From the NCBI GenBank assembly GCA_020432045.1, contig JAGQHB010000103.1, forward strand, positions 1-64,000: a stretch of DNA of 64,000 bases, in the 5' to 3' direction. The position numbers and the translations under genes were made by a program. Below are positions 1,281-7,606 of this stretch, piece after piece (the first letter of the stretch is position 1; every line of letters starts with the position of its first letter). The stretch comes from Dehalococcoidia bacterium (GTDB lineage Bacteria; Chloroflexota; Dehalococcoidia; Tepidiformales; Tepidiformaceae). A model generated the notes under the pieces. The model saw only the letters and a program-made list of their open reading frames with translations. It had not been told where the DNA came from and made no database searches.

Positions 1281-2495
1281 TCAACCGATCGCTTCAGCGG
1301 TGCGTGCGCCATGTACGCTCCGCGAATTGGCACCCGCTCCGACAGTGGCCGGCGCCGCTAGTTGGATGGTGAATGTCGTGCCCTTACCAGGTTCCGAGGC
1401 AACGGTGACCGTGCCGCCCATACAGGTGACGAGTTCACGGACGATCGAGAGCCCGAGGCCGGTGCCACCCTCACGCCGGCTGCGTCCACGGTCGACGCGA
1501 TAGAAGCGGTCGAAGAGGTGCGGCAGCGCCTCCTGCGGCACTCCCACGCCGTCGTCGGCGACGGCTAGCTCCGTGATGTTCCCCACGCGTCGCGTTGAGA
1601 GGCGGATGTTGGCGCCATCGCCGGCGTATTTGATCGCGTTTTCGACAAGGTTCTGGATGCAGCGGTACAGGAGGTCAGCCGAAGCCATCGCTTCAACGTT
1701 CGCGTCGCCGTCATGGGCCAGGGAGACGCCACGCTGATTGGCCAGTGGTTCAAGCTGCGCGATCACCTCGCGCACCACCGCTCCCGTCGCAACGGGCTCC
1801 AACTCCGGCACTTCGCCTTCGCTTGTGGTGAGCAGGAGGAGGTCTTCACTGAGCCGGGTGAGGCGCTCCGTCTGGGCCTTCACGGTGTCCAGCAGCTCCT
1901 TGTATTCCTCGGGGGACGCTTCGGGATCCATCTCCAGGACTTCGATGTTCGTGCGGATGGCGGCCAGCGGAGTCCTCAGTTCATGCGAGGCATCCTGGAC
2001 GAACAGCCGCTGCTGTGCGAACGAGCGCTCAAGCCGCTCGATCATGGAGTCAAAGGTGTCGGCGAGCGTCTTTAGTTCGTCGTCCGGCCCCTGGTGGTTG
2101 ATGCGCCGCCCGAGGTTGGATGCCCCGACCTCCGCGGCTGCCTCCGTGATGTCCCGCACGGGGCGGAGGAGCATGCCGGAGAGCAGGTAGCCACCGACGC
2201 CTGATGCCATCGCGAGGCCGAACACAGAGATCAGCGACCAGAACCGCAGCTTCTGCAGGTTCTCGGCAAACAGCGTGTCTTCCGCTTCCTGGAGGGTGAG
2301 GATCGGCCGTAGTGCCAGTGCCTGCCCCGGCCCTTCCCGGACCAGCTCATAGCGGGCATCCTTCACTTCGAGGACCGTGCGGTCGTACCGCATCGCGAGG
2401 TTCAGCGCGACGACGAACGCGACGGCAAAGACAAGCAGGAGGCCGGAATACCACAGCGTCAGCTTGAAGCGGACGGTGCGCGTAAACGGCGGCAG
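1281..2495 (-). CDS. Membrane sensor histidine kinase (EnvZ/BaeS-like), probable CTG start
   Basis: Inner-membrane sensor kinase, partner of the OmpR-type regulator just upstream. Order seen: TM1, a short extracytoplasmic region (about 45 residues), TM2 (about 85-110), HAMP, HisKA with the phospho-acceptor His in DASHELRTP (about 171), then the ATPase domain with N box NLVENAIKYA, G1 DDGVGV, F box FDRFYRVD and G2 GGTGLGLSI. The first ATG in frame (2393) would delete TM1, yet the frame stays open upstream and encodes a clear hydrophobic helix (FKLTLWYSGLLLVFAVAF). No ATG, GTG or TTG occurs between the in-frame stop and that helix, so CTG at 2495, eight bases after the regulator's stop, is the best start. 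The exact start is uncertain; the kinase call is firm. The inducing signal is unknown. Confidence 0.88.
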   Translation of the reverse strand: MPPFTRTVRFKLTLWYSGLLLVFAVAFVVALNLAMRYDRTVLEVKDARYELVREGPGQALALRPILTLQEAEDTLFAENLQKLRFWSLISVFGLAMASGVGGYLLSGMLLRPVRDITEAAAEVGASNLGRRINHQGPDDELKTLADTFDSMIERLERSFAQQRLFVQDASHELRTPLAAIRTNIEVLEMDPEASPEEYKELLDTVKAQTERLTRLSEDLLLLTTSEGEVPELEPVATGAVVREVIAQLEPLANQRGVSLAHDGDANVEAMASADLLYRCIQNLVENAIKYAGDGANIRLSTRRVGNITELAVADDGVGVPQEALPHLFDRFYRVDRGRSRREGGTGLGLSIVRELVTCMGGTVTVASEPGKGTTFTIQLAAPATVGAGANSRSVHGARTAEAIG

Positions 2496-2502
2496 GAGCG
2501 TG

Positions 2503-3165
2503 CTAGAGGACGTAACCCTTCCCCCGGATGGTCTCGATCAACTGTTCGCGGAACCCCTCATTTAGCTTACGACGCAGGTTGTTCATGTGTACCTTTACGG
2601 TCTGCGTAAAGGGGTTTGCGTGCTCGTCCCAGATGTGTTCCAGGAGTTCCTCCTGGGGGACGGCGCGGCCCTCGTTGCGGGCAAGGTAGTAGACGAGCGA
2701 AAACTCTTTGGGCGTCAGGTGGATTTCCTGGCCGTCACGTTTCACGCGGTTGGTATTTGGGTCGAGCTCGAGCCCGCGCGTGTCGATAACAGGCTCCCGG
2801 AGGCTACCTTCACGCCGCGTGATCGCACGGATGCGGGCTGCAAGTTCGCTGAAGGCGAACGGTTTCACAAGGTAGTCATCGGCGCCGTGGTCGAGGCCCT
2901 CGACTCGGTCCCGGATGGCACTTCGGGCGGTCAACATAATAATGCCGCCGCCGAAACGGTCTTCACGCAGCCGCCGGCAGACCTCCACTCCGTCGATGCG
3001 AGGGAGGTTGAGGTCGAGACAGACGACGTCGTATGTGTTGACCGCGGCCTTCTCAAGTGCCTCCGCGCCGTCAAACGCCACATCGACGGCATAGCCGAGC
3101 TTGGTCAGACCGCGTTCGATTGCACTCGAAATGGGCTCTTCGTCTTCGACGACAAGGATGCGCAT
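2503..3165 (-). CDS. OmpR/PhoB-family response regulator
   Basis: Cytoplasmic DNA-binding regulator of 220 residues. The receiver domain has the acidic pair (E8/D9-like VVEDEE), phospho-acceptor D51 in CLDLNLP, the conserved Thr in MLTA, and K101 in DDYLVKPF. The C-terminal winged helix (about 125-220) ends in the usual ETIRGKGYVL. It is first in a two-gene operon with the histidine kinase, 7 bp apart, so the pair is a complete two-component system. A repeated GGTAAAG element upstream may be its autoregulatory site. Target genes cannot be told from the sequence. Confidence 0.95.
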   Translation of the reverse strand: MRILVVEDEEPISSAIERGLTKLGYAVDVAFDGAEALEKAAVNTYDVVCLDLNLPRIDGVEVCRRLREDRFGGGIIMLTARSAIRDRVEGLDHGADDYLVKPFAFSELAARIRAITRREGSLREPVIDTRGLELDPNTNRVKRDGQEIHLTPKEFSLVYYLARNEGRAVPQEELLEHIWDEHANPFTQTVKVHMNNLRRKLNEGFREQLIETIRGKGYVL

Positions 3166-3258: not shown

Positions 3259-4524
3259 TCAGGATGGCTGGTGGACGTAACGCTCGACGAGCCGCCGGGA
3301 GCCATCCACACCCAGCTGGCCGAACAGGCGGACGAAACGCCCGGTCAGCGCAGTTCGAATCAGGGCGCGTTCGCTGCCGGGTATTTCGAGGCAGCGTTGC
3401 TTGAACGGCCCCCACGCTTTGCGGCGGCCACGACGGATGAACTGGGCGTCTGTCTCGCCCGGCTGGCGTTCCGAGGCGAGCGCTGAGAGCGTCCACGCGT
3501 GCATTTCGTCCCGGAGGCCCGCCGGGAACGCAGGATGGTCAATAACTGCATCCTGGAAGCCCGTGGCGAGATGGACCTCCGCGCATGCGACCTCTGGAAA
3601 GCGGCTGAACATTGAATCGGGGAGGGTGCTGGCACCGTGCTGGACGGTACCCGCCATCCCGTAGCGATCCGTGCAAATCGCTGAGAGGCGTCCGAGCGTT
3701 TCGAAATCGAGGGCGACGTCGGCCGTGCTCCCGTCGGGGAGGATGACGCCGCCATGCCGGGTCCCGGTTTGGACGCTCACCTTTGAAAGGCCGCCCACGG
3801 GCTCGCCCCTGGTGGCTTCCAGAAAACCCTCGACGAACGTGATGAGTTCCTCATCTGTGCTGTTGTGGCTGCCCACTTCGCCGATTTCGCCGCCGATGGA
3901 GACGGACACACCTTTCTGCTGGTTAGCACGAACAACCCGCGCCAGGTGCGCCGTAAGGTCGACATTCGGCCGTTGCTGGTCCGCTACCGCGGGGAAGGCG
4001 AGGTCGACAAGGGTCGAAGCATCGATGTCGATGTTGCCGAAGCCGGCGGCCAGCGCATCGACGATGAGCGTTTCGAGCGCTGCCATTTCGGCAGCGCGGT
4101 CGGCTGCATAGGCCGCTGGACTCGCCATAAGGTGGTCGAGCTGGAGGAAGACTGGGCCGCGCCAGCCCGATGCAAGCGCTGCCGCGAGTACCTGAGACGC
4201 GAACTCGGCCGGGTGCTGTCCGGTAAAGCCAACCTCAGCACGGTTGATCTCGAAAATGGCAGCCGCACAATCCGTGGCTCCCATAGCGTCAAACATGGAG
4301 CGGGCGACCTCGAACGTGAGGCCGCGGACATTGACCGCGGGCACCGTAAAACCGCCCGTTTCACGACGGCCTCTCGCTTCGTAGAGGGGAAGGATGGAGG
4401 CCGAAAAGATGCCGGCAGCGGAGGCCATGTCGAAGATGGTGGCCCGGGCGGTGGCAGCCTCCGCACCGTCGCGGGTGGCAGCACGAGCGAGTTGGCTGAT
4501 CGCCTCGATAGCAGCGGAATCCAT
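3259..4524 (-). CDS. Class II fructose-bisphosphate aldolase family protein
   Basis: Zn-dependent TIM-barrel aldolase homologue, 421 residues, larger than the usual 285-360. Barrel signatures in order: [10 protein letters not shown] near the N-terminus, QLDH (catalytic-Asp/Zn-ligand region), GGEIGEVG (the ELG...GG Glu motif), QTGTRHGG and QHGAS (Zn-His and phosphate-loop regions). The match is at family level and several motifs depart from the canonical HTDH and HGSSG, so the substrate could be another ketose bisphosphate or a tagatose-type sugar. Start: the ATG at 4524 begins [12 protein letters not shown]; upstream in-frame codons continue to 4668 but encode a low-complexity Arg/Pro-rich stretch over the divergent promoter region. 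It is transcribed divergently from a class I aldolase. Confidence 0.75.
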
Positions 4525-4666
4525 TGGGCCGAGGTTACCAAATTGCCGCAGTGGGAGTACGGAAGGGCAGCGGAGGCACCGGATCGCACGTATCATGGGG
4601 CGAAACACCCCGGTGGCCTGCTGCAAAGCCGTGGGCTGCCCCCTAAGGGAAGGGAGACACCAAACC

Positions 4667-5773
4667 ATGGTTATCGCACCTGCCGCTCCGGCAACTGAGC
4701 TTGGCCTGAGCGGGATTGCCGATCTCCTCGGCGCGAAGGCTGAATCACTGCTAAACCATCGCTGCGAAACAATCCCGGCCGACTCGCTCTACGTGCCCGG
4801 AGGAGACTTCGTCTCCCGCGTGTGGGCGGATTCGAACCGTTCGCCGCAGGTGCTCCGGAGCCTTCAATCGATTATCGACCATGGCCGCCTCGGCGGGACG
4901 GGGTACGTGTCCATCCTGCCGGTGGACCAGGGGATCGAGCATTCCGGCGGTGCGTCGTTCGCCAAGAACCCGGCGTACTTCGATCCCGAGAATATCGTCC
5001 GGCTTGCGCTTGAAGGTGGGTGCAACGCCGTTGCCTCGACGTACGGAGTGCTGGGGGCGGTGTCGCGCAAGTTTGCCCATCGCATCCCGTTCATCGTGAA
5101 GATCAACCATAACGAACTACTTACGTACCCCAACAAGTACGACCAGATCATGTTCGGGACCATCAAGGAAGCCTGGGACCTCGGTGCAACCGCCGTCGGT
5201 GCGACGATCTACTTCGCCTCGGAAGAGAGCACGCGCCAGATCGTGGAGGTCGCGAAGGCGTTCGCGTACGCGCATGAACTTGGCATGGCGACCGTCCTGT
5301 GGTGCTACCTGCGCAACCCGGGCCTGAAGGTCGATGGCGTGAACCATGAGACGTCAGCAGACATAACAGGACAGGCAAACCATCTTGGTGTCACGATCCA
5401 GGCGGACATCGTCAAGCAGAAGTTGCCCGAACAGAATGGCGGATTCCCCGCACTCAACCGCAACGGTGCGAGCTATGGGAAGAGTGACAGCCGGATGTAC
5501 AGCCAGCTGTCGACGGACCACCCGATCGACCTCACACGCTACCAGGTGGCGAACGGCTACATGGGTCGCGTCGGCCTGATCAATTCTGGTGGCGCGAGCT
5601 CCGGCGAAAGCGACATGGCGGAGGCGGTGATGACCGCGGTCGTGAACAAGCGAGCCGGCGGCATGGGCCTCATCAGCGGACGCAAGGCTTTCCAGCGGCC
5701 GATGGCGGAAGGGATCGGGCTTCTGAACGCGATCCAGGACGTCTACCGCTGTAAGGACGTGACCCTCGCCTAA
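4667..5773 (+). CDS. fbaB: Class I fructose-bisphosphate aldolase (DhnA/FbaB type)
   Basis: Schiff-base aldolase of the archaeal/DhnA type, 368 residues, interconverting fructose 1,6-bisphosphate and triose phosphates in glycolysis and gluconeogenesis. Seen: [14 protein letters not shown] near residue 85, the segment [10 protein letters not shown] with the likely catalytic region, [11 protein letters not shown], and the C-terminal phosphate-binding [13 protein letters not shown] and [12 protein letters not shown]. The ATG at 4667 has GGAAGGGAG about 10 nt upstream. The frame is open far upstream, but that stretch lies antisense to the class II aldolase and is not credible. A perfect 23-bp hairpin follows the stop. 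Two unrelated aldolases back to back suggest separate glycolytic and gluconeogenic, or backup, roles. Confidence 0.93.
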
Positions 5774-5784
5774 TCCCAGGGCAG

Positions 5785-5835
5785 CGCTGACGACGAAGAA
5801 GCCCGGCGCCTTGCCGGGCTTCTTCGTCGTCAGCG
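5785..5835. terminator. Perfect 23-bp hairpin, bidirectional terminator
   Basis: Arms 5785-5807 and 5813-5835 are exact reverse complements around a 5-base loop (GCCTT). The hairpin starts 12 bp after the fbaB stop and ends 20 bp before the end of the converging regulator gene. The A/T-rich GAAGAAG and CTTCTTC blocks inside the arms, rather than a long flanking T-tract, suggest it ends transcription from both sides. Confidence 0.85.
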
Positions 5836-5854: not shown

Positions 5855-6631
5855 TCAGGCTGCGCGAGTATCGGCGCCGGACTCACCGCGTGTAGTCCCG
5901 CGGCGTTCGAGCATGTAGCCAAAGCCGCGGATGTTCACGATGTAGTTAGGGTCGGCTGGTTCGAATTCGATCTTCCGCCGGATGCGCCGGATGTACACCT
6001 TGACGATTTCCTGCGCTTCCCGCTCAGAGTATGTGTAGTCTTGGACGGCACGGAGGATCTCGACGGGGCTGATGACCTTGCCAGCATTGCGGGCGAGGTA
6101 GGCGAGAATCTTGAACTCAGTCGGCGTGAGGGGGATAACCTCGTCGCCGCGCGATGCCTGGCATCGATCAAAGTCGAGTTCGAGGTCTCGCACCTGGATG
6201 CTGGCCGGCCCGCCTTCGAACGCATCGAACGAGGTGCCGGGAGATTTTCTGCGGGCAATGGCGCTCAACTGGGCTGTGAGCAGTTCGGGACCGTCGGTGT
6301 CGCGGAGGCACACATCGGCGCCGGCGTCGAGTGCCGATGACATGCCGTTTACGTGTGGGCCGGGAGCGATAACGACGATCGAGGCTCGGCTCGATCGTGC
6401 AACGTTCCCGATTACCGTCAGGTCACTCTCTTGCCGCGGGTCCACCGCCAGCAAGACGAGGTCTGGAGCAAGCTGAATGAGCAGCCGCTCCGTGTCTCGA
6501 TCGTGTGGCCGTTCCGTCGTGATGTACCCCTGGCGGGCAAGTGCCGGCAGCACATCGGCCGCCCGGTACTCCCGTGTGTGGGTCACGAACGCAACGGAAC
6601 GCCTCATGCGATCATCGTTCTTGTCTGGCAT
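5855..6631 (-). CDS. Orphan response regulator with degenerate receiver and winged-helix DNA-binding domain
   Basis: 258-residue OmpR-like protein whose receiver domain (about 10-130) has lost the phosphorylation chemistry. The acidic pair is replaced by TH (17-18), the phospho-acceptor position in DLVLLAVDP is Ala62, the switch Thr is Ala89, and the invariant Lys position in GADVCLRDTDG is Asp111. The C-terminal winged helix (about 150-245) is intact, with LTPTEFKILAYLARN, the IVKVYIRRIRRKI recognition helix and the GFGYML wing. It should therefore bind DNA without classical phosphorylation, perhaps sensing a ligand or partner as in atypical regulators such as RedZ or JamR. No kinase gene is adjacent. 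The upstream neighbour on the same strand is an alternative sigma factor. The ATG at 6631 has a GGGGGAAGGA leader. Confidence 0.85.
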   Translation of the reverse strand: MPDKNDDRMRRSVAFVTHTREYRAADVLPALARQGYITTERPHDRDTERLLIQLAPDLVLLAVDPRQESDLTVIGNVARSSRASIVVIAPGPHVNGMSSALDAGADVCLRDTDGPELLTAQLSAIARRKSPGTSFDAFEGGPASIQVRDLELDFDRCQASRGDEVIPLTPTEFKILAYLARNAGKVISPVEILRAVQDYTYSEREAQEIVKVYIRRIRRKIEFEPADPNYIVNIRGFGYMLERRGTTRGESGADTRAA

Positions 6632-6770
6632 TCCTTCCCCCGGTTCATCCTCTTGCTATACGGCTCAATGTTGCGCGCGGGGTGGGTCGCGCTGAGCCCG
6701 TGGTCTAATCATCGGCAGCGCTGGCCCGGCCGAAAGGGTGTCCATGAAGTAGAGATCCGATCGGATGCAA

Positions 6771-6795
6771 CAAACCGGCCACTTGGGCCGGTTTG
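6771..6795 (-). terminator. Rho-independent terminator of the sigma factor gene
   Basis: A 10-bp GC-rich stem (6771-6780 with 6786-6795, CAAACCGGCC and GGCCGGTTTG) with loop ACTTG lies 25 bp beyond the sigma factor stop on the minus strand. Read on that strand, the 3' arm ends in TTTG followed by TTG, a short U-rich tail. It separates the sigma gene from the degenerate regulator, so the latter likely has its own promoter in 6632-6770. Confidence 0.7.
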
Positions 6796-6820: not shown

Positions 6821-7606
6821 TCAGGCGGCGTCCTTGAGGAGTGCTCTGCGCAGGCGCTTGACAGCCTGGCTGTGCAGTTGGCTTACCCGTGTCTCCGAGA
6901 CCGACAGGACGACCGCGATGTCTTTCATCGTCAGCCGCTCCACGTAGTAGAGGGATACGACGAGCCGCTCGCGTTCCGGAAGGCCTTTCACCGCGCGGAT
7001 GAGGTCTTCGTACAGTTCCTTTTCTTCAAACATCCGCGTGAAGTCGATGTCTTCGTCGCTGGTAGGCATCTCCGCAGCGGGGAACGAATCGCCGTCGTCG
7101 TCCTTGGCGAGCATCTTGTCTAACGAGACGGTAACCCAGCGTGCGTTCGAACTCGCATCGCGGTACTGGTCGATCGAGATGCCTAGGTGCGTCGCGGCCT
7201 CGACTTCGGTCGGAGTCCGTCCGAGGGCGACCTCGAGTTCAGATTGTGCGCGTTGGACGTCGCGGGCCTTCTGTCGCATCGTCCGGCTGAGCCGGTCCAT
7301 GCGCCGGAAGGCGTCAATCATAGAGCCACGGATTCGCCGCACGGCATAGGCGTGGAAGTTCGTGCCCTTGGTCGGGTCGTAGCGGCGGACCGCTTCCACG
7401 AGCCCGCAGGTGCCGTAGCCCACGGCGTCCTCATATTCGAGCAGTCCCGGGATTTCCAGTGGAAGCGAGCGGGCCACGCGCCGCACCAGGGGCGCGTACT
7501 GCGTGACGAGCTGTTGTTGCGCTTCGTGCGGGAGGCGGTAGCCGCCGCCCTCTTCGTCCGCCGGGACGAGTGTCTCGAGATCAACGGTACTAGTTGTGGT
7601 GTCCAT
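6821..7606 (-). CDS. Alternative RNA polymerase sigma factor, FliA/WhiG/SigB-like
   Basis: 261-residue sigma-70-family factor with regions 2, 3 and 4 but no region 1.1. Region 2 (about 35-105) has EDAVGYGTCGLVEAVRRYDP and the RRIRGSMIDAFRRMD segment typical of sigma-28/WhiG-type group 3 factors. Region 3 follows (GRTPTEVEAATHLGIS), then an acidic linker, then region 4 with LPERERLVVSLYYVERLTM and the helix-turn-helix SVSETRVSQLHSQAVKRLR. The family directs flagellar, sporulation or stress regulons. No flagellar, anti-sigma or sporulation gene is nearby, so the regulon is unknown. The ATG at 7606 has AGGTAGGGG just upstream, and a hairpin terminator follows. Confidence 0.93.
   Translation of the reverse strand: MDTTTSTVDLETLVPADEEGGGYRLPHEAQQQLVTQYAPLVRRVARSLPLEIPGLLEYEDAVGYGTCGLVEAVRRYDPTKGTNFHAYAVRRIRGSMIDAFRRMDRLSRTMRQKARDVQRAQSELEVALGRTPTEVEAATHLGISIDQYRDASSNARWVTVSLDKMLAKDDDGDSFPAAEMPTSDEDIDFTRMFEEKELYEDLIRAVKGLPERERLVVSLYYVERLTMKDIAVVLSVSETRVSQLHSQAVKRLRRALLKDAA

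Follow-up and report, generated by a model that had tools for sequence, protein, structure and literature searches.

An atypical response regulator (ARR) of a Dehalococcoidia bacterium has lost every residue of the standard phosphorylation chemistry, and substitutes that do not vary among its orthologues stand in their place. We consider it probable (roughly 60%) that ARR is a phosphorylation-independent pseudo-receiver regulator of the OmpR/PhoB type and that the upstream gene product, a FliA/WhiG-family sigma factor, sets its supply via a dedicated promoter. The gene lies in a stretch of 64,000 nucleotides (the window), and the features around it are collected in Table 1, where RRc denotes the neighboring canonical regulator; below, genomes, loci and genera are labeled G, L and g, respectively.

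According to a 2025 review (PMC12632262), pseudo-receivers make up about 6% of receivers, both ligands and partner proteins are listed among their inputs, and how they are switched on and off is called a mystery. Pseudo-receivers as such are therefore already known; what is new here is that the pseudo-receiver is restricted to one family, that its pocket has been fixed anew throughout, and that a flagellar-type sigma factor, for which one promoter is visible so far, accompanies it almost constantly. We found no description of the ARR–sigma gene pair in the open literature searched (Tepidiforma; Chloroflexi; Dehalococcoidia flagella/FliA), and a Tepidiforma paper that treats flagella (PMC10284905) uses none of the terms "sigma factor", "two-component", "fliA" and "FlgM" in its main text. 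With 24 orthologues carrying a replaced and re-fixed site, a near-constant sigma factor and an element found at a single site in 14 genomes, these bacteria offer a system for studying pseudo-receiver control. Some of them (Tepidiforma) are in culture, so that control by supply, by a ligand and by heterodimerization should be separable experimentally.

Table 1. Features of the window around the ARR gene
Feature	Position	Strand	Remarks
Histidine kinase, HAMP-HisKA-HATPase	1281..2393	-	adjoins RRc, syntenic
RRc, canonical OmpR-type response regulator	2503..3165	-	syntenic with ARR in most relatives
23-bp perfect inverted repeat	5785..5835		lies between ARR and the aldolase gene convergent with it
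ARR, atypical OmpR/PhoB-type response regulator	5855..6631	-	258 aa, ATG start
ARR domains			pseudo-receiver, about residues 10-130; variable linker, 131-142; winged helix, 143-244
Promoter-like element, CCCTTTCGG-N11-CTGCCGATGATT	6707..6738	-	putative; 75 nt before the ARR ATG; FliA/WhiG-type spacing
10-bp perfect inverted repeat	6771..6795	-	between the sigma gene and the ARR promoter
FliA/WhiG-family sigma factor	6821..7606	-	directly upstream of ARR; assigned by profile match; linked to ARR in relatives

A Predicted Receiver Fold with a Replaced Active Site

The only domain that Pfam recognized in ARR was the Trans_reg_C winged helix (E = 3.6e-21; 75.5 bits, cut-off 26.2), which was matched in 23/23 orthologues and places their output domains in the OmpR/PhoB class. 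Response_reg (PF00072) gave no match to ARR at E ≤ 1, and when the whole genome was searched with this profile, 18 other places were matched and the ARR locus was not among them; the profile is silent because the sequence of the receiver half has diverged too far for it to match. An AlphaFold2 model based on 20 aligned sequences (mean pLDDT 84.1) predicts a (beta-alpha)5 receiver joined to a winged helix, the five strands and five helices of the receiver being mostly at pLDDT 86–96 and the arrangement of the two domains being unreliable (pTM 0.52). In a structural alignment, this predicted receiver matched that of KdpE with a Z score of 15.6 and an rmsd of 2.0 over 115 residues. Foldseek and VIA-align placed ARR among OmpR/PhoB regulators (KdpE, MtrA, CosR, RpaA, RitR), and by sequence profile its nearest solved relatives were KdpE and, slightly lower, MtrA. 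By its predicted fold, ARR is a bacterial pseudo-receiver, in keeping with a preliminary description of the region, in which the receiver pattern had been read as kept and the winged helix as intact.

The active-site positions were read from an alignment of ARR with six canonical regulators of its own genome. H18-T19 occupies the place of the acidic pair, A62 that of the phosphate acceptor, A89 that of the Thr and D111 that of the Lys, while the aromatic (Tyr) switch position is C108. All of these residues are identical in 24/24 orthologues, which means that the five active-site substitutions reflect neither chance nor sequencing error. An Asp at the acceptor position was looked for in the same alignment and occurs in none of the 24. 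The preliminary description had named A62, A89 and D111 correctly; it had also reported the acidic pair as TH, which holds insofar as no acid is present, but T17-H18 is out of register by one residue, unless the pair had been read in another way. Since the acceptor, the acidic pair, the Thr and the Lys are all gone, the standard aspartyl-phosphate chemistry is impossible in ARR, as had been proposed. Judged from its sequence, with Ala62 at the acceptor position and no Response_reg match, ARR falls outside the definition of a two-component receiver.

Conservation was counted in a 23-sequence alignment, from which the partial ARR of L031 was left out (alignments A1 and A2). Within the receiver, conservation proved highest in the loops of the old active site, with 20/27 positions invariant as compared to 33/93 in the rest of the domain (Fisher p = 7e-4); in the linker, 0/12 positions were invariant. 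The usual signatures are replaced by THTRxY, TTERPHDR (in which one T is nearly, but not wholly, invariant), (I/V)DPR, APGP and RD(T/S)DG. Because these loops are so strongly constrained, we favor a rebuilt site under selection over decay, and the pattern points to the old phosphorylation face having become a fixed surface. A decaying pseudogene was rejected, both because of this constraint on the loops and because the frame is open in 24/24 orthologues (in L031 it runs into the end of the contig).

As the rebuilt face is conserved, one further input to ARR, a ligand or a partner, seems likely; the face would most likely bind a partner protein or a small ligand that tunes ARR. A stronger version, in which ARR is gated by a ligand as in JadR1 or RedZ and a small molecule or anion at the rebuilt face alters DNA binding, is possible but doubtful. 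It would fit the loops of the old face, where H18, T19, R20, H43, D44, R45, D64, R66, D111 and D113 are invariant in 23/23 aligned orthologues. However, the same residues might equally contact a protein partner or form salt bridges within ARR, and the neighboring genes imply neither a ligand nor a biosynthetic gene cluster. Binding of B12, an idea that arose from a Pfam match and from a paralogue adjoining methylmalonyl-CoA mutase, was provisionally discarded: the match was sub-threshold (6/23 orthologues, best E = 3e-4) and left the His18 loop uncovered in the member inspected.

A thiol switch of the RitR or HP1021 kind, acting through Cys108 and Cys157, appears very unlikely. Both cysteines are invariant in 23/23 sequences and the former occupies the Tyr switch position, but Cys108 is part of a strand and Cys157 of the winged-helix platform, neither being in the linker, and Cys108 is common to only some of the paralogues.

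Distribution and Paralogues

ARR was found in 24 of 37 genomes of its own family, the source genome included, the relatives standing at 65–74% identity; at this level of identity it was absent from 24 genomes that represent as many other families of the class. When 400 genomes were drawn from the phylum, four had an ARR match at E ≤ 1e-45, all from the same family. Tepidiforma flava and other Tepidiforma are among the named records, and judged by this kinship the window comes from a relative of Tepidiforma within the Dehalococcoidia. As far as tested, ARR is confined to one Dehalococcoidia family, the one that holds Tepidiforma.

More diverged pseudo-receivers form paralogous groups within this family. 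A tree separated 27 pseudo-receiver rows from 8 canonical rows (support 100/99), which suggests that the pseudo-receivers of the family may have a single origin, bearing in mind that several paralogues are long-branched and that the canonical rows are only eight, all but one from the source genome. One truncated paralogue (x_G001) was dropped from the active-site comparison.

One of the pseudo-receiver paralogues, present in the source genome and two relatives (L123 6483-9271, L125 and L132), adjoins a gene that was identified by eye as methylmalonyl-CoA mutase-like. At a second locus, seen in three genomes of one genus (L124 6745-13299, L133 and L134), the pairing of a sigma factor and a pseudo-receiver recurs: a pseudo-receiver regulator is found there with a second FliA-like sigma factor, along with a CpaE/TadZ-like ATPase (by eye), a NarL-type regulator and a PAS histidine kinase.

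The Linked Sigma Factor

The alternative sigma factor noted earlier beside ARR could be assigned to the FliA/WhiG family, as it scores 229 bits against TIGR02479 (FliA_WhiG; cut-off 189.6). Against the WhiG equivalog PRK06288 it reaches 217 bits, below the cut-off of 343, and so does not qualify as a Streptomyces WhiG. The sigma gene lies directly upstream of ARR on the same strand in 23/24 ARR loci. Across the 37 genomes of the family, 23 have both genes, two the sigma gene only, one ARR only and 11 neither (eight of these from one genus); the co-occurrence is significant by genome (p = 1e-6) and by genus (p = 0.008), the latter value depending on few independent losses. In both genomes with the sigma gene only (G004 and G024) the contig ends just after it, and G024 retains an ARR-type element at that end (L131). 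No sigma gene was detected in the 69% complete genome G009, which has ARR. There, the sigma slot (L052 8727-9550) holds small reading frames of helix-turn-helix and PemK/MazF-like type, identified by eye.

The ARR-linked protein is the sole FliA/WhiG-family sigma factor found in the source genome, where neither flagellin nor FlhA was found; the same two proteins were not found in G006. Flagellated relatives possess, in addition, a flagellar FliA-type sigma factor, encoded some 6 kb away from a flagellin-family gene; this second sigma factor shows fixed differences from the ARR-linked one in what we take to be regions 2.4 and 4.2. The source genome also encodes one FlgM-like anti-sigma factor (G000:C84:107773-107919, L197; 32.1 bits, cut-off 25), and similar stand-alone genes are present in relatives. 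This protein is a candidate partner of the ARR-linked sigma factor, and a FlgM-like anti-sigma is likewise a candidate signal input upstream of it. One could go further and imagine a flagellar-type sigma factor detached from flagella and serving a single promoter, that of ARR, so that sigma (perhaps with a FlgM-type anti-sigma) would replace the histidine kinase as the gate, in a circuit that outlives flagella, as in the source genome. We regard this extension as speculative and rather unlikely.

The Promoter-like Element before the ARR Gene

In relatives, the element in front of ARR has the consensus CCCTATTAG-N11-CTGCCGAAGATA, and its spacing equals the 15 nt that separate the −35 and −10 boxes of flagellar/WhiG promoters. 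The boxes themselves have been given as TAAA and GCCGATAA (PMC8325347). We scored 18 of the 24 upstream regions, at most two per genus, with profiles trained on other genera, and the element was recovered at the same place in 18/18. In 15 of these regions its score exceeded that of all 300 shuffles, while in the other three, from g7 and g14, shuffles did as well in 1, 2 and 4 cases out of 300. Because the training sites had been picked by consensus, the weight lies in the fixed place across genera and not in the score alone. The copy in the source genome is diverged (23.5 bits, as against up to 35.8).

The search for a wider sigma regulon yielded no convincing second target with an ARR-type element, either at ≤1 mismatch in 10 genomes or at ≤3 mismatches in 14. 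With up to two mismatches, the element occurs once in each of the 14 genomes, at ARR; beyond that site there were 11 matches, all with three mismatches, versus 43 control matches. In the 10-genome search, further matches stood above the reversed control in several genomes, as scattered single-mismatch sites. One match in G007 near a FlgM-like gene (20.0 bits) fell within an open reading frame and was dropped. When 23 regions were examined by eye, the flagellin promoters in these genomes often had the CCCTA part in common with the element but a different −10, CGATAAC or CGATACC.

Promoter divergence was found to track sigma divergence when ARR divergence was allowed for (partial r = 0.35, permutation p = 0.0065). 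It also tracks ARR divergence given sigma (p = 0.037), and for this reason an operator read by ARR has to be weighed. That the element is an operator, for ARR or for another factor, and not a sigma promoter would also suit the near-palindrome ACCCTATTAGGGT found within it in many genomes. The palindrome is missing in Tepidiforma, however, where the half-elements and the fixed 11-nt spacer remain, and both the spacing and the −10 match FliA/WhiG promoters, so that we judge an operator unlikely.

We therefore keep to a sigma promoter as the preferred reading. The ARR gene would be a target of the sigma factor encoded just upstream, which would read the element; when sigma is active, ARR would be made and would bind DNA. 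The cell would then control the amount of ARR, which would be active, or primed, once made. As ARR has no phosphorylation chemistry and has a sigma-type promoter of its own, supply is the simplest form of control and presumably the main one, with the rebuilt face acting as a binding site.

Scans for sigma-70 promoters and terminators around ARR returned none, and an Rfam scan of the window detected two tRNAs only. The 10-bp inverted repeat might mark the end of the sigma transcript, and the 23-bp repeat could be a two-way terminator; neither was called by a terminator scan that requires a T run. A purine-rich GGGGGAAGGA is found upstream of the ARR ATG.

Flagellin Genes as Possible Targets

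A different role for ARR would be that of a flagellar gene activator like Rem, which is also of the OmpR-type class, acting on 11-bp repeats before flagellin genes; a repeat layout of this kind is typical for binding by the OmpR/PhoB family. Rem, a flagellar ARR of the Rhizobiales, is named in the review cited above (PMC12632262). In relatives, the regions upstream of flagellin genes (L156–L165) contain GTYCACC units spaced by 11, 22 or 33 bp, with 15 pairs as compared to 0.5 in shuffles. Genome-wide, pairs of this kind outnumber those of the control in eight genomes with ARR (83 vs 22) and not in six g12 genomes lacking ARR (23 vs 25). The g12 genomes are, though, distinct in many other respects, and many matches to the pattern lie inside coding frames, as did several of the 18 genome-wide matches inspected. 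Moreover, the source genome and G006 keep ARR and sigma with neither flagellin nor FlhA, and G002 (78% complete) has FlhA without ARR. The ARR gene itself has no GTYCACC repeats in front of it. Taken as a Rem-like activator, ARR would thus have a possible flagellar link that some genomes do not bear out, and we think such a role quite unlikely.

Comparison with Known Regulators

The circuit favored here, with sigma supplying ARR, resembles that of WhiI, a regulator with a NarL/LuxR-type output where ARR has an OmpR-type winged helix. In Streptomyces, sigma-WhiG supplies WhiI, whose heterodimer partner is BldM (PMC4125116). The likeness is that an atypical, orphan-like regulator is apparently driven, from a promoter dedicated to it, by a FliA/WhiG-family sigma factor: before ARR, an element with FliA/WhiG spacing was found, and sigma would use it. 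WhiI, however, keeps part of the pocket, whereas all the pocket residues of ARR are gone; in addition, the sigma and ARR genes are adjacent here and have a canonical OmpR pair as neighbor. This suggests that sigma-drives-ARR circuits may have arisen outside Streptomyces with another output domain.

The closest profile and fold matches of ARR are RpaB (E = 6.6e-30), MtrA and KdpE, but ARR lies far below the cut-offs of these families (104 of 330 bits for RpaB) and lacks the active site. Also among its fold matches are CosR, RitR, GlnR and the atypical orphan regulator of structure 2hqr, which we take to be HP1043, while the NblR profile matches with E = 8e-14. Together with ChxR, these are OmpR-type regulators that work independently of phosphorylation. 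None of the six is orthologous to ARR, and they have other residues and other known controls.

In the CmrRST system of Clostridioides difficile, CmrT is an OmpR-type ARR encoded, like the present one, near a normal OmpR regulator and a kinase (PMC12548384). CmrT carries a phosphomimetic Glu and retains the T and K, in contrast to the Ala acceptor, the lost T and K and the linked sigma factor of our ARR.

The Neighboring Regulator, Kinase and Aldolases

The RRc and kinase genes lie 2.7 kb from ARR in the window, and in 18 of the 20 loci that are long enough (L056, which ends inside ARR, was not counted) such a pair follows downstream of ARR on the same strand within about 6 kb. The preliminary description had stated that ARR has no kinase. 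That is right in the sense that ARR is tied to RRc and the kinase by gene order alone, but with a syntenic HisKA kinase nearby, ARR is not an orphan regulator.

This arrangement raises the alternative that ARR is a heterodimer partner of RRc, with the nearby kinase acting indirectly; partnerships of this kind have been proposed for CmrT/CmrR and demonstrated for WhiI/BldM. Besides the conserved gene order, RRc is highly conserved (85–91%) in the genomes that also have ARR, and in L057 and L059 it starts 100–130 bp after ARR, a gap small enough that the two genes may share a transcript. On the other hand, RRc exists without ARR in G011, G014 and G020 and lies on a separate contig in G015 and G022. 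The position that we take to be the canonical alpha5 interface Arg is, furthermore, an invariant Gln121 in ARR. On balance, a heterodimer seems somewhat unlikely to us.

Between ARR and RRc, the window contains two unrelated aldolase genes arranged head to head (3259-5773), a class-II FBP-aldolase-like one on the minus strand and a DeoC/LacD-type one on the plus strand. In most loci of the relatives, this slot is occupied by one of the two aldolases, and both are present only in L052.
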